NCBI RefSeq assembly: GCF_016924655.1
Contig: NZ_JAFFJU010000001.1
Location: forward strand, 248,001 to 312,000
Origin: Sphingomonas arenae
GTDB taxonomy: Bacteria; Pseudomonadota; Alphaproteobacteria; Sphingomonadales; Sphingomonadaceae
Direction of reading: 5' to 3'
DNA length: 64,000 nucleotides
Both the position numbers and the translations under genes were made by a program. Each line of letters starts with the position of its first letter. Within the stretch, counting starts at the first letter, position 1. Positions 11,165 through 64,000 of this stretch are shown piece after piece. The notes beneath the pieces are model-generated. The model saw nothing but the letters and a program-made list of their open reading frames with translations. It was not told the DNA's origin and ran no database searches.

Positions 11165-12163
11165 ATGCGCGCACTGCTTTCCCACGAGCCCGGCGGTCCC
11201 GAGACCCTCAAGCTTGCGGACCTTCATGACCCGGTGCCGTCCGCAGGCGAGCTCCTAGTCCGCGTGCATGCGGCAGCCATCAACTACCCCGATGTCCTGA
11301 TCATTGAGGACAAGTACCAGTTGAAACCGCCTCGGCCGTTCGCTCCAGGGGGCGAGATTGCCGGTGAGGTCATCAGCGTCGGTGAAGGAGTGACGGACTG
11401 GAATGTGGGCGACCGCCTGATCGCGGTTCCCGGTTTTGGTGGACTGGTCGAGAAGATCGTCATCCCCGCCAGGAGTGCGTTCCGGCTGCCCGAAAGCCGC
11501 AGCTACACCGAAGGCGCAGCGCTGCTGCTGACCTACGCGACCTCCATTCACGCCCTCTGGGATCGGGGCCGGCTGCAGGCAGGCCAGACCCTGCTGGTGT
11601 TAGGCGCGGCGGGCGGAGTGGGACTGGCGGCCGTTGAACTCGGCAAGGCTCGCGGCGCGCGGGTCATTGCAGCCGTGTCCTCCGAGGAAAAGGCCGAGGC
11701 CGCCCGTAACGCCGGCGCTGACGAGGCCATCGTCTACCCGCGCGGCCCGTTCGATCGAGATGCGCGCAAGGCTCTCGCGGACCTATTCAAGAAAGCGGTG
11801 GGGGCGTCCGGGGCCGACGTCATCTATGACCCGGTGGGTGGCGATTATTCCGAACCTGCCCTGCGTGCGATCGCGTGGGAAGGCCGCTACCTGGTCGTCG
11901 GGTTCCCGGCAGGCATTCCGAGACTCCCGCTCAACCTCACTCTGCTGAAGAGCTGCGACGTGTGCGGGGTTTTCTGGGGGGCCTTCGCAATGCGCGACCC
12001 GGAGGCGAATGCCGCGCATGTCGAGGAGTTGTTCCGGCTCTGGGACGAGGGCAAGATCCAACCGCTCGTCAGCGCCACCTATCCGCTTGAGAAGGCTGGA
12101 GAGGCTATCTCCGCCATGGCCGCCCGTCAGGTGATCGGCAAGCTTGTCGTGGAGATTGCGTAG
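11165..12163 (+). CDS. NADPH:quinone oxidoreductase (zinc-free MDR family)
   Basis: Medium-chain reductase of 332 residues that would reduce quinones or enones with NADPH. It has an N-terminal GroES-like domain (AAINYPDVLIIEDKYQ) and a nucleotide-binding domain with GAAGGVGLAAVELG. The zinc-binding cysteines of alcohol dehydrogenases are absent, as expected for quinone oxidoreductases. The ATG at 11165 is the only good start. It stands alone between a repeat and an outer-membrane protein gene. Confidence 0.9.
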   Translation: MRALLSHEPGGPETLKLADLHDPVPSAGELLVRVHAAAINYPDVLIIEDKYQLKPPRPFAPGGEIAGEVISVGEGVTDWNVGDRLIAVPGFGGLVEKIVIPARSAFRLPESRSYTEGAALLLTYATSIHALWDRGRLQAGQTLLVLGAAGGVGLAAVELGKARGARVIAAVSSEEKAEAARNAGADEAIVYPRGPFDRDARKALADLFKKAVGASGADVIYDPVGGDYSEPALRAIAWEGRYLVVGFPAGIPRLPLNLTLLKSCDVCGVFWGAFAMRDPEANAAHVEELFRLWDEGKIQPLVSATYPLEKAGEAISAMAARQVIGKLVVEIA

Positions 12164-52527: not shown

Positions 52528-54096
52528 CTAAGCCTGGAGCCGCTGCAGGAATTCGGGCGTTAAGCCGCTCTGCTTCCAGTAGTTCTCTAGACCCATGTCG
52601 TGCATCAGCGGCATGAAACGCCGGTCGCGCTGCATGGGGGCGGCCGTCGGCGTGAACAGCATGTTGGTCTTGCGTCGACGCTGGTCAGGAACCAGCGGTT
52701 GCCCCGGCCGCCAGTTCACGGCCGCGATGACTGGTCCTTCCTCCAGATAATACGCTCGTGCGAGCGAGAAAGCGGTGTCCGTCTGCTTCATCAGGTTCAG
52801 GAGCATAACAGCGTTCACCACGGCCGCGACGCTTCGTTCTACCCCGCTCATCACCTGACGTGATGCCGCCGCGATGTCGGTGGGGCTGCCGGTCCCGGCG
52901 GCGTTGATCGCGTTGCGCAAGGTCGCAACCATCGGCGGAGGCAGCGCCGGGCGCTGCACGCCATCCTCGATATGGGCCAGCGCACGGTCGAACCGCCCCG
53001 TACCGGCCAGCACCCACAGCCTCCCGAACCAGATTCCGGCATGCCTGGGCCACATCGCCAGCCCCCGGTGCGCAGCGCGATCCGCCTCCGCAATCCGGTC
53101 GAGAAACCAGTAGGCGTAGATCTCACGGGTCCGGAGGTCGGGGTCGAACGCGTCCTCGGCCGAGAACTCCAGCCGATAGCGGGCACTCTCGCGCATTCTC
53201 CCGACGGCGCCCATCAGGAACGCGCGGGAGTCCTTCACGAACAGGTGGTCAGGATGCCTAGCGAGCACGGCATCGAAGCGCCGTTCGGCCGCGAGCCAGT
53301 CGCCATAGTAAGGGATGGCAACTGCGAGCGCGGCACTTGCATCGGCATTGTCCGGGTCGAGCCGCAAGGCGGTCCGAGCGGCTTCCTCGATCCTGCTGGC
53401 CTGTGAGGTCGTGGGCGCCGTGTTGTGCTCATCGATTCGCGCTCTGGTGAGCGCGAGCAGACCCCATGCGGCGGCACTTCCGGGCACCTGCTGCACAGCC
53501 TGTTCGAGCAGCGCGACGGCGCGGCGCTGTCCTTGCGGCGTTCCGCTGCGCATGGCCGTACGGCTAGCCTCGACCAGCGGTTCGGCGGGATCAGCCGCCG
53601 GCTTGCGCGCAAGCCATATTCCGAGACCGGCCGCTGCGGCCAACCCGCCGGCGAGCACTCCTCTCCGCCCTAAGCTCCTTGGAGCTGCTGGGCCGGACGT
53701 GGCCTCGGTAGGTGCGGTTCGGATGTCTGCCTCTTCGTTGGGTTCGACCCGGGTGAGCAGGCGGTAGCCGGTCCGTGGAATGGTCTCGATTTCGAAGCTG
53801 TTCGCAGCGATGCCGGCGGCGAGGCGCCGGACACCTGCAATGGCTCGATTGAGACTGTCATCCCCCACGTAGACACCACCCCAGCACCGCTCCAGCAGCG
53901 TCTCGCGCGTGACCACCGAGCCGGCTGCGTCTGCAAGAACGATCAGTACCTGCATGACCCTGGGTTCCGCCTGCCCCCTGCCGCCTGGACCGCTGACCGT
54001 GCGGGTGGAGGGAGAGACGTGCACGAGTCCGACCGTGAAATCCGGAACGTCGGCAAGGGACGCGGCGGTAATCAGCACGCTGCTCTTCATGTCCAT
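52528..54096 (-). CDS. Membrane-bound OmpR-type winged-helix regulator with TPR domain (paralogue 1)
   Basis: ToxR/CadC-like one-component regulator of 522 residues. Residues about 18-118 form an OmpR-type winged helix (RVMQVLIVLADAAGSVVTRETLLERCWGG, SLNRAIAGVRRL, IETIPRTGYRLL). After a linker comes one membrane helix preceded by arginines (RRGVLAGGLAAAAGLGIWLA, about 143-161), then a TPR-rich C-terminal domain, probably periplasmic. It shares order and many motifs with the regulator at 55615-57150 (IPYYGDWLAAERRFDAVLARHP). It is divergent from the PEP-CTERM gene. Confidence 0.88.
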   Translation of the reverse strand: MDMKSSVLITAASLADVPDFTVGLVHVSPSTRTVSGPGGRGQAEPRVMQVLIVLADAAGSVVTRETLLERCWGGVYVGDDSLNRAIAGVRRLAAGIAANSFEIETIPRTGYRLLTRVEPNEEADIRTAPTEATSGPAAPRSLGRRGVLAGGLAAAAGLGIWLARKPAADPAEPLVEASRTAMRSGTPQGQRRAVALLEQAVQQVPGSAAAWGLLALTRARIDEHNTAPTTSQASRIEEAARTALRLDPDNADASAALAVAIPYYGDWLAAERRFDAVLARHPDHLFVKDSRAFLMGAVGRMRESARYRLEFSAEDAFDPDLRTREIYAYWFLDRIAEADRAAHRGLAMWPRHAGIWFGRLWVLAGTGRFDRALAHIEDGVQRPALPPPMVATLRNAINAAGTGSPTDIAAASRQVMSGVERSVAAVVNAVMLLNLMKQTDTAFSLARAYYLEEGPVIAAVNWRPGQPLVPDQRRRKTNMLFTPTAAPMQRDRRFMPLMHDMGLENYWKQSGLTPEFLQRLQA

Positions 54097-54124
54097 TGGA
54101 GTGATCGACCCTCCGTCGGCACAT

Positions 54125-54143
54125 CGTCAGCCAACCGTCAGCC
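54125..54143. promoter_or_regulatory. Direct repeat with 11-base spacing, candidate OmpR-type operator
   Basis: CGTCAGCC occurs at 54125-54132 and again at 54136-54143, an 11-base periodicity, one helical turn, typical of OmpR-class tandem binding. It lies between the divergent regulator and PEP-CTERM genes. Confidence 0.4.
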
Positions 54144-54256
54144 TTCCGTAATGCCGCCCGATGAGCCGATGCGTCAGGATGGCGGCACGGGAAAGCTGAC
54201 CCTCTCGTCCGCCCACCCGATCACCGGCTTGTGCCGAATGACGAAAGGACCGTTCG

Positions 54257-55033
54257 ATGGTGAAGCAGCACAACGGATTGCGCAAGGAGGCTGTGATTGC
54301 GGCACTCGGCATCAGCCTGTTCTCCGCCGACGCAAGGGCAGCCGAGATCACGCAGGTCAATTACGGAAGCTTGACCGGCACGGAGTTCGTGTCGTTCGCC
54401 TCACTCACGGCAGCGCCGGGTGCGGGCACGAACTACGATGGCCTGCTTATCGTTGATGGCGTCGGTTTCGGCGAGCACTTCCAAGGCCAGACGGTATCGC
54501 CCTCTGGCGAATTCGATCAGGTCAGCGGCACTCCGTCCGGAGCCTTGAACCTCCAAGCCGGGGCACCGGGCCAAAACCTCGCCGCGCTTCAGAGCCCCGC
54601 GGGGATCGTGCTCAGTGGCATCGGGACGTCAGGCTATCCCGTGTTCGACGCCATCGGAGAAGGCGCGGTGTCGCTGCTGTTCTCCACCGACCAGTCCGAG
54701 TTTGGTTTCATCCTCGCCGGCGGTCACGGCGGCAACGCCTATGTCAGCTTCTTCCGTGGTGACGGATCGCTGATCGAGGCCCTGACTCTGGGCAGCCTTC
54801 CGCTAGTCAGTCGCTTCGGCTTCACGCGAACCGGAGGCGTTCACGACATTCGCGGCGTAACCATCTGGAACGACGATCCGACCGGGTTCGGCCTCACCGG
54901 GTTCCGCCATGACGTCGCCTCCGCCGTGCCTGAACCCGGCACATGGGCGACCATGCTGCTCGGCTTCGGACTCGTCGGCACGATCATGCGGCGCCGGCGC
55001 CCCGCAAAGCACGTCTCAGCTTGCCCGTCCTGA
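54257..55033 (+). CDS. PEPxxWA-CTERM secreted protein
   Basis: The 258-residue product has a signal peptide (VIAALGISLFSADARAA) and a mature beta-rich domain. The C-terminal sorting signal is VPEPGTWATMLLGFGLVG followed by RRRR: the PEPxxWA motif, one hydrophobic helix and a basic end. Such proteins are processed by an exosortase-type system encoded elsewhere and usually end up in the envelope or outside. The middle (FGFILAGGHGGNAYVSFFRGDG) resembles other PEP-CTERM cargo without a known activity. It follows GAAAGGACCG. Confidence 0.9.
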   Translation: MVKQHNGLRKEAVIAALGISLFSADARAAEITQVNYGSLTGTEFVSFASLTAAPGAGTNYDGLLIVDGVGFGEHFQGQTVSPSGEFDQVSGTPSGALNLQAGAPGQNLAALQSPAGIVLSGIGTSGYPVFDAIGEGAVSLLFSTDQSEFGFILAGGHGGNAYVSFFRGDGSLIEALTLGSLPLVSRFGFTRTGGVHDIRGVTIWNDDPTGFGLTGFRHDVASAVPEPGTWATMLLGFGLVGTIMRRRRPAKHVSACPS

Positions 55034-55111: not shown

Positions 55112-55423
55112 TCACTGCCGGCGCAGGAACCACTCGCTATTAAGGACTTCGCGGCGATGATCAGCGAAGTACCAGGTGTCGGTGTCTGGATCGTACTCGC
55201 AGGTGAACGCGCGCGTCATGAAGCTGCGCGCTTCGCCCAGGCTCGAGAACCGGTCCGGGCGGAGCGCAAACTGCCGCTCGGCGTCTTCGTTGCTGAGACG
55301 TGCATTCTCAGCCTCGCACTCGCCACGGGTGGCAAACTCCGTCGAATTGAAGATGTGATCCGCAGCCGCCGGACATGCAAGTAGCAGCGACCCCAGCACA
55401 GTCGCGCAAAGAGTGGTTTTCAT
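55112..55423 (-). CDS. Small secreted hypothetical protein
   Basis: The 103-residue product starts with a signal peptide (TTLCATVLGSLLLACPAAA) and has a mature, charged part with two cysteines (TRGECEAEN and FTCEYDPDT) likely to form a disulfide, plus DTDTWYFADHR. No family recognised. It is transcribed away from the second regulator. Confidence 0.7.
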   Translation of the reverse strand: MKTTLCATVLGSLLLACPAAADHIFNSTEFATRGECEAENARLSNEDAERQFALRPDRFSSLGEARSFMTRAFTCEYDPDTDTWYFADHRREVLNSEWFLRRQ

Positions 55424-55492
55424 GACTGTCTCCGTCCATCTCTGCCGCCGTTCGCGGCCCCATCAGATGAACCGTGGTGACGTCGGCTTGCC

Positions 55493-55557
55493 ATGATGAT
55501 CATCTCACCAAAACACGATGATCTGCCGATCGCTTGTGGCCTGTTGACAGTCTGTCA
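55493..55557. promoter_or_regulatory. Palindromes upstream of the second regulator
   Basis: ATGATGATCATCTCA (from 55493) shares its first 11 bases with ATGATGATCATGTGA upstream of the lipoprotein-Slam operon (near 61903). Further on, TGACAG-T-CTGTCA (55545-55557) is a perfect 6-bp palindrome. Confidence 0.35.
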
Positions 55558-55614: not shown

Positions 55615-57150
55615 GTGCTGAAAGTTCGGGATCTCGCCAGCCGGTCAGATTTCACCGAAGGCACCCTGAGGGTGAGCCCATCGCGCAGGATCATAGCGGG
55701 TCCGGCCGGGCAGACGTCCCTTGAGCCGCGCATCATGCAGGTACTTCTGCTTCTACTGGATGCCAGTGAGACAGTCGTCACTCGTAACCAGCTTTTCGAC
55801 GAATGCTGGGGCGGGGCCATCGTCGGGGACGACAGCATCAACCGAGCAATCGGGCGACTCCGCCGTGTGCTGACCCAGGTGGCACCCGGTGCCGTGGACA
55901 TCGAAACCATTCCCCGCACCGGCTACCGGCTGATCCTGCGGGCGGCTGAAACACCGTTTTGTGCGGCAGAGCCAGTGACGGCCGACGAGAAAATCGCCCG
56001 GTCGTCCTGGTCAAGGCGCAGGCTGCTCGGTGGGGGCCTCGCTCTGGCCGCGGCGGGCGGCGCCGCGATTTGGCAGGCAGGAGAGTCGAAGGAAGACCTG
56101 GCTGCCCAGCTGATCACGGAGAGCGACGCGATCGCGCGCGCGGGAAAACAGGAATCGACGACCCAAGCCCTGGCACTACTACGACGAGCTGTCGCCGTAT
56201 CGCCGAACAACGCTCAAGCGTGGGGCGCTCTGGCGTTGGCAGTGGCCCGGTCCGAACATCCCTCCTTGGCCCAAACCACCTCGCCGACCCTGGACGTAGA
56301 ACGCGCAGCGCAGCGGGCCTTACGCCTCGATCCCGCAAACGCCGACGCCAAGGCGGCCCTGGCGATTGCGATCCCCTACTATGGGGATTGGCTGTCGGCC
56401 GAGCGCCGCTTCGACGCCGTTCTGGCGCAGCACCCGCGTCATTTGGCGACGATTGACGCCAAAGCGTTCCTGATGGCAGCGACTGGTCGCCCGCGCGAAA
56501 GCTCCGAGGTGCGGCTCCGTTACCTCAGCGGTGAGCCGTTCGACGTTCGGCTCCACTATCGCCAAATCTATGCTCACTGGATGCTGGACCGGATTGCTGA
56601 AGCCGACCAGATCTCGGGTCGAGCCATGGAGATGTTCCCGCGACACCCAGGCGTCTGGTTCGGCCGACTCTGGCTCCTGGCAAGCACCGGCCGCATCGAG
56701 CGGGCCCTGGCCCTTGTTGACGATGCTTACGGCCGCCCGCCGCTTCCCGCCTCGACGGTCGCGAGCCTGCGCGCGGGTCTCATCGCAGCGCTGAGCCGTG
56801 ACCGCAGTGAGATCGATGCGGCGGTCAGACAAGTGATGGCGGGAGTGCAACGCAGCGTGAATGGCGTTGTCAACGCGATCATGCTGTTCAACATCATGGG
56901 CGCAACCGACGCCGCTTTCGATCTGGCCGATGCTTATTATCTTGAGCGCGGGCCGATCCTTGCAGCGATGCAGTGGCGACCAGGGCAGCCGCGAGTTCCG
57001 GATGTGCGGGGCCGCAAGACCAACATGCTGTTTACGCCCAACGCGGCGACTATGCAGCGCGACCCCCGCTTCCTGCCGCTGATGCGGAAAATCGGGCTGG
57101 TCAGCTACTGGCGGCAGCGAGGCATCACCCCGGACTTCCTGCGCCGATGA
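55615..57150 (+). CDS. Membrane-bound OmpR-type winged-helix regulator with TPR domain (paralogue 2)
   Basis: Paralogue of the regulator at 52528-54096, 511 residues from the GTG at 55615 (after GGAGGG); the frame is open to a TTG at 55534. Same layout: winged helix (RIMQVLLLLLDASETVVTRNQLFDECWGG, IETIPRTGYRLIL), arginine-flanked membrane helix (RRRLLGGGLALAAAGGAAIW) and TPR-type C-terminus (AIPYYGDWLSAERRFDAVLAQHP, RRKTNMLFTPNA-like GRKTNMLFTPNAATMQRDPRF). Its stop overlaps the TonB receptor start (ATGA), so it is probably the direct regulator of that receptor. Confidence 0.88.
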   Translation: MLKVRDLASRSDFTEGTLRVSPSRRIIAGPAGQTSLEPRIMQVLLLLLDASETVVTRNQLFDECWGGAIVGDDSINRAIGRLRRVLTQVAPGAVDIETIPRTGYRLILRAAETPFCAAEPVTADEKIARSSWSRRRLLGGGLALAAAGGAAIWQAGESKEDLAAQLITESDAIARAGKQESTTQALALLRRAVAVSPNNAQAWGALALAVARSEHPSLAQTTSPTLDVERAAQRALRLDPANADAKAALAIAIPYYGDWLSAERRFDAVLAQHPRHLATIDAKAFLMAATGRPRESSEVRLRYLSGEPFDVRLHYRQIYAHWMLDRIAEADQISGRAMEMFPRHPGVWFGRLWLLASTGRIERALALVDDAYGRPPLPASTVASLRAGLIAALSRDRSEIDAAVRQVMAGVQRSVNGVVNAIMLFNIMGATDAAFDLADAYYLERGPILAAMQWRPGQPRVPDVRGRKTNMLFTPNAATMQRDPRFLPLMRKIGLVSYWRQRGITPDFLRR

Positions 57151-59552
57151 GATCGTTAAGCTTGCCACCGCTCGCGCGCTTGTCGATCGTCTCGGCAACC
57201 CTGCTCTTTCCGGCTGGTGCCCGTGCCCAACCTGACCAACCTTCCGGCCCGGACGGACTTGCCCCTCCTGCAGAGATCATCGTCACGGGCCGAAGGCGGG
57301 AGGAGCTGCTCGAGGACACACCGGTGCCGCTCAGTGTCGCTCGCGGCGACGAACTCGCGCGGGCGGGGGTCCGGCAGGCTGACGAACTCAACCAGCTGTT
57401 CCCGGCACTGACGGTTCTCGGCACAGCGACCGGCAACCTCGTCTTCATTCGAGGAGTCGGCAACTTCACGCTGCTGGCCAACAGCGATCCGGCGATCGGC
57501 TTCAGCTACGATGGCGTGTTCATCACTCGCCCGAATGCCACCATGTCGCCGTTCTTCGACCTCGAGAGGGTGGAGCTGTTGAAGGGACCGCAAGGAGTGC
57601 TCTACGGTCGGAACGCCTCGGGCGGCTCGATCAACATCGAGCCCCGACAGCCCGTCTTTGGTGAACTCGGCGCACTTGTTGCAGGGAGCGCGGCGACCAG
57701 CGACGATTTCAAGGCGGAAGCCGCCCTGAACCTGCCAGTCGGACCCGCGGCGGCCGTCCGGCTTGCCGGCTCTCTCGGGAGCCAGGAACACTTCCTCGAT
57801 GGCTACAGCACCGGTCCCCGTCATCAGGCCGCTCGGGCTCAGGTCAAGCTGAAGCTCGGCCGCGACGTCACCGTGCGCGTCTCTGCCGACCACACCCACT
57901 TGGGCGGGGTCAGCTTCGGCAGCAGCTACATCGGCAACTACGTCTATGTACCGGCGGAGGGGCGCTATGCGTTCAACGAAGCTCCCACGTCCCTGTCGGA
58001 AGGCCTTTATTCGGCGGATGCCCAGGCGTACCGCCAGAGCATCTTCCTTCCGGGCGCCGGCCGCAACCTGGACGCGATCGGTTCACGGCCCCGCCAGGAT
58101 AACCGGTTCACGGGCCTGCACGCCCGGTTCGATGCCGATCTCGGTTTCGGACAGCTGACCGTCATCCCGGCCTGGCGGCGCTCGGTCATCGACGCCGTGA
58201 TGGCCAGCTCGCCCTTCGGCTTCGAACAGGATGAGAAATCGCGCCAGACCAGCCTGGAAGCACGGCTCACCGGGCGGACCGGCCGCCTTTCCTGGCTGAC
58301 GGGCGCTTTTCTCATGAACGAGCGGTTGAACGTCGGCGGGATCACGAATCTGTCGACGTCGCTAAACTATTCCGACGAGCAGTATCGAACACGCAGCCGG
58401 GCACTGTTCGGGACCTTGACTGTGGATATCACGAGCGCCCTTCGCCTCTCCGGAGGCTTGCGCTGGACGCACGACCGCAAGGAGTACGAGCGGGAGAGCG
58501 AGACTTTTGCCCTCCTGTGCCAGCAGGTAGTCGCCGGCCGTCGCAGCTGCCCCACAGTGCCGCTGTTCGCGCTGGTGGACAGCCCGGCCGAGTTGCCGTT
58601 CGCCGTGCCTGCGACGCCCGGTTCAGGCCTGCCCATCCTGGTAGGTGGCGTACCGACTGGTGCGGTAGCGACCCGTTCCCTGGTGGTCACCGACGGCCGC
58701 CTCGCCGACAAGGCCATGACTTGGCGGCTGGGAACGGAACTCGACCTCGCCCCCCGGACTCTGCTGTACGGAGCAGTTGAGCGGGGATACCGGCCCGGCG
58801 GTTTCAATCCGGCCACCGGTTTCGAGACCTACGATCCGGAGCGGATCCTCGCATTCACGCTCGGACTTCGGCATCGGTCGGACGATCGGAGGTTGGAGTT
58901 CGACCTCGAGGCCTTCTGGTGGAAGTACCGCGACCAGCAAGTCAGCGCACCGCGGCCGGACCTGTCCACCCCTCCGCGCGTCGTCACGATCACCGACAAT
59001 GTCGGGAACTCGCGCATCTCCGGGCTCGAAGCACAAGCTCGTTATCGGCTCTGGCGCGGCGCGTTGGTGGGCGGCACCGTCCAATATCTTCATGCCCGAT
59101 ACGGCTCGTTCCGCTACCTGCAAGGGAATAGCGGCGCGCCACCACTCACCGGCTGTGATGCGATCTTGGACGTGGCAACCAACCTGTACACGGTCGATTG
59201 CACCAGCAAGCAGCCGTACAACAGCCCGCGCTGGAGTCTCAGCCTGCAGGCACAGCAGGAGGTCCGGCTCGGCCGCTTTCGGCTGACCGCCTTCGCGGAC
59301 AGGCACTACCGCTCGGCTCGAACCGTTGGGTCGGCGTTCCTGCCGGAGCAGAGGGTGGGACCGACCTGGACCAGCAACGTGCAACTGGTGCTGTCCCAGG
59401 AGGGGCAGGACTGGGAACTCGGCGCCTTCATCCGTAACCTCGAAGGCGAGCGCACTCCGCAGTTCGTCATCTTCCATCCGGTCAGCAATGCGCTGGTGGC
59501 GGTGCCCGGTTCGCCCCGCCAGTTCGGCCTGCGCGCCTCCCGCCGGTTCTAG
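57147..59552 (+). CDS. TonB-dependent outer-membrane receptor
   Basis: The 801-residue product has a signal peptide (cleavage near GARA), a plug domain (EIIVTGRRREELLEDTPVPLSV, VFIRGVGNFTLL, DLERVELLKGPQGVLYGRNASGGSINI in outline) and a 22-strand-type barrel ending in aromatic RASRRF. Extracellular-loop cysteine pairs are visible (LLCQQVVAGRRSC, GCDAILDV ... VDCTS). There is no N-terminal signalling extension. The ligand is unknown. It is coupled to the upstream regulator and converges, with 6 bases between, on the Slam gene. Confidence 0.92.
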   Translation: MRSLSLPPLARLSIVSATLLFPAGARAQPDQPSGPDGLAPPAEIIVTGRRREELLEDTPVPLSVARGDELARAGVRQADELNQLFPALTVLGTATGNLVFIRGVGNFTLLANSDPAIGFSYDGVFITRPNATMSPFFDLERVELLKGPQGVLYGRNASGGSINIEPRQPVFGELGALVAGSAATSDDFKAEAALNLPVGPAAAVRLAGSLGSQEHFLDGYSTGPRHQAARAQVKLKLGRDVTVRVSADHTHLGGVSFGSSYIGNYVYVPAEGRYAFNEAPTSLSEGLYSADAQAYRQSIFLPGAGRNLDAIGSRPRQDNRFTGLHARFDADLGFGQLTVIPAWRRSVIDAVMASSPFGFEQDEKSRQTSLEARLTGRTGRLSWLTGAFLMNERLNVGGITNLSTSLNYSDEQYRTRSRALFGTLTVDITSALRLSGGLRWTHDRKEYERESETFALLCQQVVAGRRSCPTVPLFALVDSPAELPFAVPATPGSGLPILVGGVPTGAVATRSLVVTDGRLADKAMTWRLGTELDLAPRTLLYGAVERGYRPGGFNPATGFETYDPERILAFTLGLRHRSDDRRLEFDLEAFWWKYRDQQVSAPRPDLSTPPRVVTITDNVGNSRISGLEAQARYRLWRGALVGGTVQYLHARYGSFRYLQGNSGAPPLTGCDAILDVATNLYTVDCTSKQPYNSPRWSLSLQAQQEVRLGRFRLTAFADRHYRSARTVGSAFLPEQRVGPTWTSNVQLVLSQEGQDWELGAFIRNLEGERTPQFVIFHPVSNALVAVPGSPRQFGLRASRRF

Positions 59553-59558
59553 CGGAGA

Positions 59559-60881
59559 TCAGAAGGCCCGGTTGAAGCCGAACTCGGTGCGGGTGCGTGC
59601 GTAGTCGTAGAAGGCGACGTTGCTCCTGTTCTTCTCACGGCTCAGCCGCACAAAGGGTGCGAGGCCTCGGAAGGTCAATGACCGGAAAACCCCACCGACG
59701 CTGAGGCGGGACAGCCGATCTTTTCTCGCCTCCGGCAGAAGTGCGAGGCGCTCGTCCCCTTCGAGGCGGCCGCTCTCGATACCCGCAAACACCGTGGTAC
59801 GGCCGATGTCCTGCCAAAACTGGAGACCTGCCCTCCAGCTTGCGGTTGAATAGCCGGCATCCCGGGCCTTGAACCGGTCAATAGCGCCGCTTGCGACCAC
59901 CCCGTTCCGGCTGCTGAGTGCACGTTCGGCGGAGAGGCTGAGCGACGCCTGTCGGCCGCTGAGCAAGGGATTGATCCGGTGATCGATCTTCGCAACCGTC
60001 CCTCTGACGCTGACCGCCGTGCGCGCGCCAAAGGACCGTCGCGCCGATGTCGAGAACCGGAATGAGCGGGCCAGCGGCTTCCCGCCGAACCAGCTCTGTC
60101 CAACGCCAACATCCGCGTGAAAACGGATATCGGCAGCCGTAAATTCCGGACCGATGGAGGCCTCGGCACTCACCAGGTTGAAGTCGCTCTTGCGGTACAG
60201 GTCGGCGGACGTCGTCAACTGTGCAAGGAGTTTGAAATCGTCATTCAGCGCAACCCGCCGGTATGCACGTCCGCGCAAAGCCACACCTACGCCCGAGGTT
60301 GCCTTGGCTTCCTCCACGATGTCGAAATCCCCAAGAACAGTGTCTAAGCCATCAGAGCGGGTTGCCCGATTGATGTTGCTGTCCGGCGCGAGGGCAAATT
60401 CGAGTGAGAAGCCCGATGGCTTACGTGCCCGCAAGGCCTCGGACCACCGCTCCACCAGGCGCGCCACGTCGGGCGGAAGCTTGCCTGCACTGACCGACCG
60501 CAGTTCCCGGGCGGCGGCGCGTTCGTCGCCGAGGTGTACAAGGATGCCGGCGAGTTCGAGCCTTGCTCGAGTGGCGCCCGGACGCTCGTCCAGCAGCCTG
60601 CGAAGCAGAGTTGCCGCTTTCGCATGCTGATCAACCCTGGACAGCAGCATCGCATGCCCGAACAAGGCAGCCGCCCTTACGTCGGCATCTGGGTCTCCGG
60701 ACAGTGCCACGTAGGCGCTCTCTGCAATCTGCCGCTCGCCGCTTGCGCGTGCCCGCTCGGCAAGCGCAAGCAACTGGCGAGAGGTCATTTGCCGATGCGC
60801 CGCCGGTATTGTGCGCGCGGCAGCCTGGCCGCCCGCGGGCACCGCGTCCACCAGCCCCCCGGACAGGAGAAGCGCAAGCAT
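59559..60881 (-). CDS. Slam-like surface lipoprotein assembly modifier (TPR + DUF560 barrel)
   Basis: Predicted outer-membrane translocon that flips lipoproteins to the cell surface. The 440-residue product has a signal peptide, an N-terminal periplasmic TPR region (about 36-155: AESAYVALSGDPDADVRAAALFGHAMLL, KAATLLRRLLDERPGATRARLELAGIL in outline) and a C-terminal barrel of alternating strands (FSLEFALAPDSNINRAT, the usual Slam barrel opening, through TRTEFGFNRAF with terminal Phe). It follows its probable substrate gene directly. ATG 60881, or a TTG at 60893 overlapping the previous stop. Confidence 0.85.
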   Translation of the reverse strand: MLALLLSGGLVDAVPAGGQAAARTIPAAHRQMTSRQLLALAERARASGERQIAESAYVALSGDPDADVRAAALFGHAMLLSRVDQHAKAATLLRRLLDERPGATRARLELAGILVHLGDERAAARELRSVSAGKLPPDVARLVERWSEALRARKPSGFSLEFALAPDSNINRATRSDGLDTVLGDFDIVEEAKATSGVGVALRGRAYRRVALNDDFKLLAQLTTSADLYRKSDFNLVSAEASIGPEFTAADIRFHADVGVGQSWFGGKPLARSFRFSTSARRSFGARTAVSVRGTVAKIDHRINPLLSGRQASLSLSAERALSSRNGVVASGAIDRFKARDAGYSTASWRAGLQFWQDIGRTTVFAGIESGRLEGDERLALLPEARKDRLSRLSVGGVFRSLTFRGLAPFVRLSREKNRSNVAFYDYARTRTEFGFNRAF

Positions 60882-60889
60882 CGCACCGC

Positions 60890-61846
60890 TCAATTACGTT
60901 TGGCGATGAAGCCGCCGAAGGCTTGGTGCGAAGAGCCGTCATACTGGAACGGCAGGGCCCAGGCGCCACCCGCCTCTTTGGCGTCCGGGCCGAAGAAGCG
61001 GCCTAGGAAGAAGTTGTCGCCGGTCAGCGGAGTGTCGAACCTCCCCGAGAAGGTCGTGCTTCCGGCGGAATAGACCGTATCGCTGAACGCGAACGTGCCG
61101 AGGCTTTGATCTCCATTGGGCGTGGACAATATCGGAGATAAGGAGCCCGACAGACTCGACCTGCCGAAGTCGAAGGTGAAGTCGATGGATCCGCTAACAG
61201 GCAGGGGCACGTACCCGCCATAGAAGAAGTCAGGGACCAACACGTCCGAGCTGCCCATGATGGAGCCGCTGAACGTGGCTGAGCCGGTCACCGGGATGTC
61301 TGAGCCGGGTGTGGGAGTTCCGAAAGCTACATAGCCCCAGCGTCCGGCAGCTTGGGAGCCCCATGACCCGAGTTCAACGTGCGTGTAACCCCTCGTCCTC
61401 GAGTTGGAGGTGACCAGAAAGCCCTCGTTAGAGTTGATGCTGTCCGGCTCGAAATAGTTGTTGTCAGGCCCCGGGTTGGAGAGACCGCCGTATGGGACAA
61501 GCTTGTCCCAACTGTCACCGGGCATCTCGATCTCGTAGCTGGTTCCGGTGTACCGTATTCTCGGCTGATCGGCCGAAGCGCTCGAAACTGGGGTGAAGCT
61601 CACATCCGTCGTGTCGTAGGTGTCCAGGTTTCCGCCCGGACCTGCAATCGACGCGCCGACGGAGGCATATTCGTTTGCGACCGGATCGGCGAATATGGAG
61701 ATTACCGCGGCCGCCGGGGGCGGAGGAGGTGGAGGCGGAGGCGGAGTGTTTACGAGCCCCGCTCCACCGCCGCCACCGCCGCAGGCCGCGACGGAAAGGG
61801 CAAGCGTGGTGACGCCCGCCAGACGACCCAAGACACGGATTCCCAT
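60890..61846 (-). CDS. Poly-Gly/poly-Pro lipoprotein with TbpB-like C-terminus (Slam substrate candidate)
   Basis: The 318-residue product has a lipoprotein signal with Cys22 in SVAAC, followed by six glycines, then PPPPPPPPPP, a flexible anchor like those of TbpB-type surface lipoproteins. The mature part is beta-rich and ends in a barrel motif typical of the transferrin-binding protein B family: STTFSGRFDTPLTGDNFFLG, RFFGPDAKEAGGAW and GGFIAKRN (the FFGPxAxExGG ... GxxxxKR pattern). ATG 61846 follows GGGAGG. It is directly upstream of the Slam-like gene. Confidence 0.85.
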   Translation of the reverse strand: MGIRVLGRLAGVTTLALSVAACGGGGGGAGLVNTPPPPPPPPPPAAAVISIFADPVANEYASVGASIAGPGGNLDTYDTTDVSFTPVSSASADQPRIRYTGTSYEIEMPGDSWDKLVPYGGLSNPGPDNNYFEPDSINSNEGFLVTSNSRTRGYTHVELGSWGSQAAGRWGYVAFGTPTPGSDIPVTGSATFSGSIMGSSDVLVPDFFYGGYVPLPVSGSIDFTFDFGRSSLSGSLSPILSTPNGDQSLGTFAFSDTVYSAGSTTFSGRFDTPLTGDNFFLGRFFGPDAKEAGGAWALPFQYDGSSHQAFGGFIAKRN

Positions 61847-62299
61847 TGCAGCCTCCCTCATTCAGCGTGCAGGAGAATGGCTCCATCTCACGGCCAAGAC
61901 GATGATGATCATGTGATGGAAAGCTGATGTTCAGCCGACGGTCGCCAGCAGCTGCTGTATACGCGGCAACTTGGACAACTACCGTTGTTATCCGGAGCCA
62001 CTGGCAGGATTGCGCAATCAAGGCAGCCGTCCGCCTACGGATGCGCTGCATCGTCCGAGGCGATGACCCCGAAAGGACCCGGAGCGATAGGGTGCGCTCA
62101 TCAAGAGAGCGTCCGCTTGAACCGTCCGGTCATCGACAAGCAGCCGTTCGGCTATCCACCACCAGCAGCCCATCGATGTTAGGCCAGCCTGACCGAAAGC
62201 ACGTGGCCGCTTGCGGAAGGACTGCTTACCTCAGCAGACACGCGGAAGCAGCCGCTCCTGTTAAGCTCTCGTTCGCCCATGCTCGGGCGTTATGCGGCA
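61847..62299. other. Divergent regulatory region between the lipoprotein operon and the META gene
   Basis: No gene seen in about 450 bases. Visible elements: ATGATGATCATGTGA near 61903 (shared with the region before regulator 2), the inverted repeat ACAAC-TACC-GTTGT near 61977-61990, and a GAGAGCGTCCGCTTGAACC fragment of the dispersed repeat near 62104. Confidence 0.5.
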
Positions 62300-63778
62300 A
62301 TGGGTAAGAATGTCGCCGCCCTGCTAATCGCCGTTGCTGCCTGCTCGGCCGCCCCCTCAAGACAACCGCAGTTCGAGCCATCGGAACAAAACCTGCTCGG
62401 CCAATGGCGAGTAATCGCGGTTGACGGCCGGCCTGCGGTGATGGGACGCGATGGCAGGCCCCCAGTGCTCACCTTCGACGAGCACGGGTATGGCGGCTAC
62501 GTCGGGTGCAACTCCTTCGGTGGTCTTGGGCTGGCGCACGAAAGCCGGTTCTACGGCGGCTTTGCGCTGTCCACAGCCATGGCGTGCGGAGCACCATTCG
62601 ACACACAGGAGAACGGTGTTCAGAGCCTTCTCGCCAGTGCGCCAACCGTGGAGTTCGCAGGACCAGACCGCCTTGTGCTCACAGCTGCTGATCGCAAGCT
62701 GGAGCTGGCTCGAACCGGACCGCTGCCCTCCGATCGGGTGCCGGTCGCGCCCATTCCCTTCATTGGCTCCGTGTGGAGCTTCGGCGCACTTGACGGGCGA
62801 GCGATCGAGATGCCCGGCGCGCAATCCGGGCCGACGCTGACGGTTGAAGGAGATGATTTCACGCTCGAGACGCCGTGCTTGATAACAAAAGGCCGGTGGC
62901 ATCAGTCTGGGTCGGGAGCGATCAGCCTAGCCCCTGACCGCCGAACCGAGCGCAACTGCAACGCGGCATCACGGAGCCAAAGTGAGGCCTGGGCGCAAGC
63001 CATGCGCGGTGCCCTGCGGTACAGCAACGGACCCAATGGTGAGATTCTGCTCGCCGGGGGTGGGCACTGGATGATCGGTGACCTTGTGCGGCGTGGCAGC
63101 AGAGAGGCGGCCTCACTTGCCGGTCGCTACGAGGTCGAGGGTGGCCCGACTGCAGCGCAGCGCAACGGCGCCAAGCCTGCCGAGCTGATCCTTACCCGCA
63201 ACGCTTACTATCTGTGGGACGGCTGCAATCGCACCGAAGGGCTGGCGATCCTGTTCGAACGGCAACTGTTCCTCCATGGCAGCGGTGTGACCACTCTCGC
63301 CAACTGCATGCCGCGCCGTGACGACGCCTACCTCAAGCGAGTTGTCACCTCCGAACCGCGTATCGGTCGCACTTCAACAGGGCTGCTCCTGTCTTCACCA
63401 GCAGGCACCATCCGCTTGCGCCGCACGGGCGATGCTCTGCCGGGCACCGGCAGCGTTACGACCCGCCTCCTAGCCGGCATGCGGTTCACCATCTTGGGGG
63501 CTGCGGGTGGCACCCTGGCGATCATGCCTCGTAACCGCTTCCGTCTAACCCAGCCGTGCGGCAACATTGAGGGACGCTGGCGGGAAGCTCGGGGGGAGCG
63601 GGACGGCTCAGTTCGCTTCGGGCCAGATAGTCCTGCGGAGGCCTGCAATCGAGACCCAGCCGCGAGGCTTCTGCAACACTCCTTCCTTGGCAACGTCGAC
63701 GTGGCGATCGGCCCCAACCGCGACATAGCCTTGTTCGCCGGCCGGTTCGGTGCGGTACGCGCTCGTCTGGAGCGCTGA
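62300..63778 (+). CDS. Large META/HslJ-like lipoprotein
   Basis: The 492-residue product begins with a lipoprotein signal (ALLIAVAAC, Cys15). The first domain fits META/HslJ: LLGQWRVIAVDGRPA, FDEHGYGGYVGCNSFGG and GGFALSTAMACGAPFDTQE. Two or three more related domains follow, each with a W/F-rich start, a cysteine pair (ETPCLITKGRW, RNCNAAS; LWDGCNR, LANCMPRR; TQPCGNIEGRW, EACNRD). So it looks like a tandem of diverged META-type units. Single META proteins bind or sense outside the inner membrane; a role is not known here. ATG 62300. Confidence 0.78.
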   Translation: MGKNVAALLIAVAACSAAPSRQPQFEPSEQNLLGQWRVIAVDGRPAVMGRDGRPPVLTFDEHGYGGYVGCNSFGGLGLAHESRFYGGFALSTAMACGAPFDTQENGVQSLLASAPTVEFAGPDRLVLTAADRKLELARTGPLPSDRVPVAPIPFIGSVWSFGALDGRAIEMPGAQSGPTLTVEGDDFTLETPCLITKGRWHQSGSGAISLAPDRRTERNCNAASRSQSEAWAQAMRGALRYSNGPNGEILLAGGGHWMIGDLVRRGSREAASLAGRYEVEGGPTAAQRNGAKPAELILTRNAYYLWDGCNRTEGLAILFERQLFLHGSGVTTLANCMPRRDDAYLKRVVTSEPRIGRTSTGLLLSSPAGTIRLRRTGDALPGTGSVTTRLLAGMRFTILGAAGGTLAIMPRNRFRLTQPCGNIEGRWREARGERDGSVRFGPDSPAEACNRDPAARLLQHSFLGNVDVAIGPNRDIALFAGRFGAVRARLER

Positions 63779-63781
63779 AGC

Positions 63782-64000
63782 ATGAGGTGGCCTTATCCGG
63801 TCGTTGGCTGCTGCTGCTTGCTCGCTGCCTGTGGACACGAGCGAACCCAGAGGTGGGAAGCAGTTACCATTGACGGTCGACCTGCATCAGGCTTCGTGCT
63901 GGTCACTCGTGCTGAGGTCGTGATCGGGGGGCATGACGGATGCAACGGCTGGGGCCTTTCGGGCCAACCCGGGATGATTGTGTCCGATGCTCAGGAATGT
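63782..64000 (+). CDS. META-like lipoprotein, N-terminal fragment
   Basis: Starts 3 bases after the previous stop and runs off the right edge; 73 codons are seen. It opens MRWPYPVVGCCCLLAAC, a lipoprotein signal, followed by RWEAVTIDGRPASG and GGHDGCNGWGLSGQPG, which match the start of the first META domain of the preceding protein. Probably a tandem paralogue in the same operon. Confidence 0.7.
   Translation, partial: MRWPYPVVGCCCLLAACGHERTQRWEAVTIDGRPASGFVLVTRAEVVIGGHDGCNGWGLSGQPGMIVSDAQEC

Follow-up and report, generated by a model that had tools for sequence, protein, structure and literature searches.

How might a free-living bacterium decide when to send a lipoprotein to its surface, and which genes would take part in that decision? 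The question is raised by a 64-kb stretch of the Sphingomonas arenae genome (2.76 Mb in five contigs), referred to here as the window; coordinates are positions within it unless another contig or locus is named. On the minus strand of the window, genes for a TbpB-like lipoprotein (60890..61846), the predicted cargo, and for Slam (59559..60881), an outer-membrane translocon of the type 11 secretion system (T11SS), lie head to tail. Two paralogous regulators are encoded close by: REG (55615..57150, plus strand, GTG start) and REG2 (52528..54096, minus strand). REG overlaps a gene for a TonB-dependent receptor (TBDR; 57147..59552, plus strand). A first-pass annotation of the window had proposed four of these genes, REG, TBDR, Slam and lipoprotein, as an uptake system. 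All four lie where it placed them, the convergent TBDR and Slam genes have stops 6 bases apart, and the TGA stop of REG and the ATG start of TBDR share the bases ATGA (57147-57150). Our own reading, to which we give a rough probability of 0.62, is that the window holds a T11SS/Slam export locus for a surface lipoprotein, controlled by REG and REG2, which would act through 11-bp operators. The operator shared by regulator, lipoprotein and Slam would tie the three together, and so makes a stronger case than the one first put forward.

Does a regulator of this type belong with Slam? REG-type regulators combine an OmpR/PhoB-type winged helix, an arginine pair (RR) before a predicted weak membrane segment, and tetratricopeptide repeats (TPRs). 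In our genus set of 61 genomes (S. arenae and 60 others of the genus), the Slam profile PF04575 gave 18 rows in 14 genomes, counted as 17 loci. A regulator homologue lies within ~4 kb of Slam at 9 of these loci, 8 times of the RR type and once not (genome G064). When named genomes were scanned with Slam alignment A1, 113 loci were confirmed. Of these, 80 were kept, some truncated by contig ends, and 10 of the 80 carry an RR-type regulator. These belong to Sphingomonas edaphi, S. rhizophila, Novosphingobium mathurense, Sphingopyxis jiangsuensis, Sandarakinorhabdus rubra, Qipengyuania gaetbuli and four metagenome bins, two of them labelled Erythrobacter, so that the pairing recurs across six genera. 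Slam and regulator are adjacent more often than chance would give. The Slam tree agrees: among 91 Slams, the 16 linked to a regulator require two label changes, compared with a mean of ~15 when labels are shuffled, and none of 500 shuffles came as low. Regulator-linked Slams are thus clustered on the tree. Three Slams with no regulator in view fall in the same part, two from S. segetis, where contigs end, and one from locus L167. The tree omits rows below 400 bits (including L102, L105, L107 and L112), duplicates from the own genome, L021 and L022 (the same Slams are kept as L173 and L165), and L100 and L101 (whose genomes are those of L159 and L155). Its support values come from the SH-like approximate likelihood-ratio test (SH-aLRT) only, after a short search, and its deepest fork is weak (54). 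A receptor subfamily travels with the pair. It lies beside the regulator at 9 of the 10 named regulator loci and at 0 of the other 70, and its profile separates linked members (at least 740 bits) from every other TBDR of the 80 loci (at most 294 bits). When genus and named loci are each counted once, 14 of 16 RR-regulator-Slam loci carry it, the two exceptions being the window and L163, where 1.4 kb of contig precedes the regulator. Most regulator-TBDR pairs are convergent and overlap by a few bases; at L158, L160, L161, L226 and in the window, the two genes are co-directional. Among 239 further alphaproteobacterial genomes, no regulator match was found at E<=1e-70 (up to six candidates scored per genome; of the genomes listed, two besides the own genome are of the same family), which only weakly suggests that the regulator family is limited to Sphingomonadales.

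How could such a regulator recognise its targets? We assembled 40 regulators (those scoring >480 bits to the family profile and the named ones, duplicates removed) and scanned 300 bp upstream of 38 of them, two being skipped, for enriched k-mers. Words resembling TCATCGGC occur in 10 of the 38 regions, with 1.0 expected. With up to two mismatches, ATCATCGGCAAA occurs in 14 of the 38, compared with 47 of 583 regions upstream of other open reading frames (ORFs), and all 20 of its matches occupy a single strand and face away from the regulator. This seed 12-mer was derived from the same 38 regions, which include two from the window. Pair scores peak at a spacing of 11 bp (11.3 by leave-one-out, followed by 5.8 at 14 and 4.8 at 8), a period that matches the tandem sites of OmpR/PhoB-type regulators. 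The operator consists of 2-5 units, each near ATCATCGGCAA; a bare ATGATGATCAT repeat, seen by eye upstream of REG and of the lipoprotein gene, was replaced by this 11-bp model. Like PhoB/PhoP-type operators, then, the window operators are direct repeats with an 11-bp period (for PhoP, a 7-bp motif with a 4-bp spacer; PMC4832192), and they differ from them in the unit itself and in its number of copies.

A 33-bp matrix built from 24 sites in 35 regulator upstream regions, with the window and the third regulator of the own genome (L116) left out, was run over both strands of the whole window. The best place, at 25.3 bits (61901-61933, minus strand), lies upstream of the lipoprotein-Slam pair, within a four-unit operator (61901..61944) that stands 54 bp from the lipoprotein ATG. 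The second, at 22.3 bits (54121-54153, plus strand), falls in a tandem operator of 4-5 units between REG2 and a PEP-CTERM gene (54099..54153; 22.3 and 20.8 bits). The third, at 20.2 bits (55492-55524, minus strand), lies between REG and SMALL, a gene for a small protein; its operator (55492..55535; 20.2 and 17.2 bits) has a degenerate third unit. Only these three places exceed 12 bits, and the next other place reaches 10.2. A three-unit pattern that uses no matrix, composed after the sites were known, matches only at 54110 and 61901/61912 and misses the site at 55492. When the loci are reversed, none of 129 holds a site above 15 bits (maximum 13.6), compared with 53 of 129 real loci. Sites above 15 bits are present at all 10 named loci with a regulator, the upstream regions of which were mostly in the training set.

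Which genes are marked by the operator? First, operators precede lipoprotein genes at L016, L017, L019, L099, L103, L117, L119, L191 and other loci. Second, they precede PEP-CTERM genes at L019, L099 and L132. Third, they mark lipoprotein genes that are distant from Slam. For example, S. rhizophila has four TbpB-like lipoprotein genes in a row (L113:8801-14718), with no Slam near and ~200 kb from its own; three of the four have an operator in front, and the fourth scores 13.2 bits. Across the genus loci, 17 of 32 lipoprotein genes have a site above 15 bits and one has a site of 13.2 bits (3 of these 17 were fetched because of their site). At the named loci, the figure is 4 of 12 where there is a regulator and 0 of 65 where there is none (maximum 11.4). 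For genome-wide searches, we built a second model, R1, from 20 of the 24 sites, and scored 150 of the ~600-1100 first-look candidates in each genome. In the own genome, R1 has five matches at E<=10: the three window sites, the regulator on contig C2, and C1:412349. At E<=0.1, matches occur in all six genomes with Slam-linked regulators, at 22 sites, some of which were used in training. Nine further matches in four genomes lead to three genes for TbpB-like lipoproteins with no Slam near by (S. edaphi has two, both missed by the PF01298 search, and G021 has one), to one PEP-CTERM gene, to four other genes with starts that resemble signal peptides by eye, and to one unclear case.

Several of these results weigh against a regulon that is controlled by REG and REG2 through the operator. 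The best R1 match in the own genome, the site at 54099..54153, has an E value of only 0.034, and the match at C1:412349 has no clear target. Six of the 70 named loci without a regulator, one of them truncated by a contig end, hold a site above 15 bits somewhere. For many relatives, the training set included the very divergent intergenic region in which the operator lies. At L158, L160, L161 and L226, the operator is found in another part of the locus and not before the lipoprotein gene. Finally, 14 of the 32 genus lipoprotein genes score at most 6.0 bits, and for 11 of these the genome does match the regulator; some TbpB-like lipoproteins are thus marked by the operator, and others are not.

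Two other explanations of the operator and its company bear on the same data, and we regard both as improbable. One is that the repeats are bound by a different OmpR/PhoB-family regulator. The genome does offer candidates: the same DNA-binding domain is matched 11 times, in 7 cases by shorter frames resembling ordinary response regulators. The sites nevertheless adjoin REG genes; they occur in six of six genomes with a REG-type regulator and, at the same R1 threshold, in none of the six examined (of 25) that have no regulator match; and they are missing from two lipoprotein-Slam loci that have another type of regulator (L102 and L109). The other explanation is that the regulator follows TBDR or PEP-CTERM genes, its linkage to Slam being a by-product of the clustering of envelope genes. 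Regulators of the family do occur without Slam beside the TBDR subfamily (L116, L118, L122, L125) and beside PEP-CTERM genes (L127, L129, L132, L135). This account sits poorly with the position of the best window operator, upstream of lipoprotein and Slam, with the operators of unlinked lipoprotein genes, and with the clustering of regulator-linked Slams on the tree. Control of lipoprotein export by REG-type regulators is the reading that we carry forward.

Are the predicted cargo and its translocon what their position suggests? The first-pass annotation had called them TbpB-like and Slam-like, and profile searches bear this out. Slam matches the SlipAM barrel PF04575 (DUF560) at 57.9 bits (cut-off 22; residues 162-444, numbered from a TTG at 60893) and has N-terminal TPRs (TPR_19, 28.6 bits, cut-off 25); the Slam-specific model TPR_Slam, at 24.2 bits, falls under its cut-off of 35.2, and a sequence search of the PDB with Slam gave no useful match. 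The lipoprotein matches TbpB_B_D (PF01298) at 34.2 bits (cut-off 26) and the NCBIfam model slam_lipo at 33.8 bits, short of the equivalog cut-off of 80. Each Pfam family has one match in the own genome. The lipoprotein begins with a lipobox, read from the sequence as LSVAAC, with a lipid-bearing cysteine that all 23 aligned relatives share; runs of glycine and then proline follow, and then a handle and a C-terminal barrel. Its AlphaFold2 model has a mean predicted local distance difference test (pLDDT) score of 84.4. A Foldseek search of the PDB with this model placed the TbpB C-lobe first (2.9e-7), with hemophilin (3.2e-5), HpuA (4.3e-5), TbpA-TbpB complexes, NHBA, TbpB and fHbp among the other top matches. 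Identities in these matches are 13-21%, and TM-scores by query length are modest (0.29-0.44). A viral fold library gave nothing at E<=0.001. The model supports a single handle-barrel pair. The lipoprotein thus shares a lipobox, handle and C-terminal barrel with TbpB, HpuA, hemophilin and fHbp, all four of which it matches in Foldseek, and differs from them in its single handle-barrel pair and low identity. By homology, Slam would move this cargo to the cell surface.

How much of this was known? The same annotation had presented the system as uncharacterised in a free-living alphaproteobacterium, which holds only in part: according to Grossman 2021, subcluster 1C is mostly from environmental Sphingomonadaceae, and DUF560 is associated with TbpB_B_D and TBDRs. 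TBDR genes occur in 120 of 185 Slam-lipoprotein clusters as given in Hooda 2017, and Grossman 2025 names a Sphingomonas surface-protein cargo class. The window locus resembles T11SS cluster 1, and subcluster 1C by its published description, in having a DUF560 barrel with TPRs, an adjoining TbpB_B_D cargo and a TBDR near by; it differs in having its own one-component regulator and a common 11-bp operator. No Slam locus tied to such a regulator or operator was found in the literature searched, which was mostly open-access and included term searches of the main texts of PMC8406197, PMC12282271 and PMC5449769 (for Grossman 2025, the terms did not include "operator"). Slam loci in Sphingomonadaceae are already known; the new part, as far as the literature searched shows, is the regulation, with the regulator, its anchor and the operator.

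Is the TBDR of the window the receptor for the lipoprotein? The first-pass annotation took it as the third part of the system, and comparison with relatives does not support it as a conserved one. The protein is a regular receptor, with plug (PF07715) and barrel (PF00593) above cut-off, in a genome with ~27 TBDRs (28 PF00593 rows). Among the 60 genus relatives, with up to 16 candidates per genome scored, it has a single homologue at E<=1e-60, which is 36% identical and does not adjoin a Slam. It scores 35-64 BLAST bits against the regulator-linked TBDR subfamily, with no match to one member, compared with 303-1222 bits among the members themselves. A tblastn search of the window with five receptors of the conserved subfamily found no remnant; only the plug region of the window TBDR itself was significant. 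As a conserved partner at Slam loci, we therefore rejected it, and this lack of conservation also counts against the proposed locus as a whole. One could still suppose that Slam, lipoprotein, window TBDR and regulator form one dedicated four-part uptake system, and the adjacency, the 6-bp convergent spacing and the ATGA overlap favour this, as does the operator of the lipoprotein's type upstream of the REG-TBDR pair. We consider it unlikely: the window TBDR is missing from the Slam loci of relatives and lies outside the linked subfamily. In the regulated export locus that we prefer, the window receptor is an unrelated one that is coupled to REG. In the regulator tree, REG and REG2 share a five-member clade (100/100) with the G010, G083 and Qipengyuania regulators, all of them Slam-adjacent, and it is REG2 rather than REG that groups with the two from G010 and G083 (100/93). 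The arrangement in the window suggests a remodelled module: the conserved TBDR would no longer neighbour REG2, and REG would have gained another. The linked subfamily comes closest to the siderophore-receptor model TIGR01783, below cut-off in the three members tested, and an iron-type ligand for it is only a lead.

What kind of protein is REG? Pfam finds Trans_reg_C above cut-off, and TPRs; the best NCBIfam matches, under cut-off, are of the HilA and CadC types. The AlphaFold2 model (mean pLDDT 78.5) has a winged helix, a low-confidence stretch and a TPR-like superhelix, and its PDB matches are generic TPR proteins. Hydropathy suggests a transmembrane one-component regulator, with the RR and a predicted weak membrane segment at about 56014-56070. 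The RR pair is invariant in 40 of 40 regulators at one fixed place, where lysine never replaces arginine. The residue before it is serine in 21, aspartate in 10 and threonine in 5 of them, and leucine, valine or isoleucine predominates at positions +3 and +4. The segment that follows has a 17-residue hydropathy of 1.74 (sd 0.23) and is 53% glycine or alanine. An RR before a weakly hydrophobic segment, the mark of an internal signal for twin-arginine translocation (Tat), is thus found in all 40, and the own genome has a TatC gene. If any basic residue sufficed, arginine at both sites in 40 sequences would have a chance of ~1e-6, kinship ignored. We infer an internal anchor of the Tat type, for which there is a precedent in FecR, cited as a regulator with an internal Tat signal (PMC10924467, PMC12911857, PMC11533796).

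An alternative, which we think doubtful, is that the anchor is an ordinary Sec/YidC segment, or that the protein is soluble like HilA, the RR having no role in Tat export. The NCBIfam matches lean this way, and three further observations weigh against Tat insertion. First, the regulators are rich in arginine in general (2084 R and 382 K), and in an arginine-rich proteome RR could be no more than the usual positive-inside charge. Second, RR is also found near a more hydrophobic segment in three of four comparison regulators, so what distinguishes the family is the fixed place together with the weak segment and not RR alone. Third, the anchor is poorly modelled: residues 111-154 of REG, which hold the RR, have pLDDT <50, which leaves the membrane step to the sequence alone. 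The constancy of the RR position in 40 of 40, the Tat-like profile and the low hydropathy speak for Tat nonetheless. The four comparison regulators, all lower-scoring, have segments with hydropathy 2.4-2.6; among the other lower scorers, L111 has an RR segment, L109:14449 and two of L108 have no clear segment, and three are fragments.

Compared with known regulators, the Tat-anchored REG that we favour would be a hybrid. FecR anti-sigma regulators are encoded beside TBDRs. REG shares with FecR the internal RR segment; it lacks a FecR domain (no Pfam match at E<=0.1) and has a DNA-binding domain of its own instead of acting on a sigma factor. With ToxR, CadC and HilA it shares the N-terminal OmpR/PhoB winged helix, and it is set apart from them by the RR and predicted weak membrane segment with a TPR domain behind. 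The literature searched, mostly open-access main texts, held no Tat-inserted winged-helix regulator, and the searched text of PMC10269533 contains no Tat or TPR terms.

How might these parts work together? The Tat pathway would insert the RR segment of REG in the inner membrane, leaving the winged helix in the cytoplasm and the folded TPR domain in the periplasm. The DNA-binding domain would bind the 11-bp repeats and activate the genes for exported proteins to which they point. In response to a periplasmic signal, the lipoprotein-Slam pair, the PEP-CTERM gene and the gene for the small protein would be switched on. A REG-type regulator probably also controls its own gene, because the repeats mostly lie within ~60 bp of its first possible start. 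Slam would then expose the lipoprotein on the cell surface, and the lipoprotein probably binds a nutrient there for a TonB-dependent receptor. For most relatives that have the regulator, this receptor would be the defined subfamily beside it; in the window, an unrelated receptor stands there instead. Candidate signals are the accumulation of unexported cargo or the occupancy of the receptor, either of which would fit a TPR sensor. A broader proposal, which we hold tentatively and at slightly less than even odds, is that this is a Sphingomonadales regulon whose one-component transcription factor, inserted by Tat, would be an equivalent of FecR that binds DNA. Its folded periplasmic TPRs would sense the state of envelope or cargo, and its tandem 11-bp operators would co-ordinate Slam, dispersed TbpB-like cargo, PEP-CTERM proteins and the TonB-dependent receptor.

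What are the implications? First, the published surveys consulted seek the cargo of Slam close to the Slam gene; a shared operator is a second, independent route to cargo encoded far away, and worked in S. edaphi and S. rhizophila. Second, the locus offers a switch that can be tested for the export of surface lipoproteins by environmental bacteria. Third, REG-type proteins are a candidate class of Tat-delivered membrane transcription factors. Fourth, the difference between the window receptor and the conserved one raises the question of how strictly cargo, receptor and regulator are paired.

The remaining genes of the window that adjoin an operator are SMALL (55112..55423, minus strand) and the PEP-CTERM gene (54257..55033, plus strand). 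SMALL, divergent from REG, encodes a predicted exported protein of 103 aa; a Pfam search with it gave no match, and its homologues elsewhere adjoin REG-type genes or operators. The PEP-CTERM gene, divergent from REG2, matches PF07589 above cut-off, and a homologue with 58% identity adjoins the regulator at L017. Past the lipoprotein promoter region lies a gene for a 499-aa META-domain protein (62279-63778), and in the same region a frame from near 63783 has a lipoprotein-like start, judged by eye. A third regulator of the own genome, on contig C2 (111260-112795), is convergent with a TBDR that belongs to the conserved subfamily (C2, about 112.8-115 kb).

Other loci add minor observations. The RR-type regulators beside PEP-CTERM genes at L127, L129, L132 and L135, where there is no Slam, have an operator upstream of the regulator, and the role of the family may extend to exported surface proteins at large. 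At L102 and L109, a TbpB-like lipoprotein and Slam lie beside a different winged-helix/TPR regulator with no 11-bp operator; this regulator type has a more hydrophobic anchor or no clear membrane segment, and perhaps represents a second scheme of regulation. In G064, the Slam and lipoprotein frames are split over overlapping ORFs (L105:8721-12499), possibly through decay or sequencing error, and an operator of 31.7 bits lies at 12051 of that locus. In S. segetis (G033, L108:711-4245), two adjacent genes for proteins of 589-590 aa are divergent from a TbpB-like lipoprotein gene. The products of this pair have an N-terminal FISYAR motif, which we take to be TIR-like, followed by TPR-like repeats.

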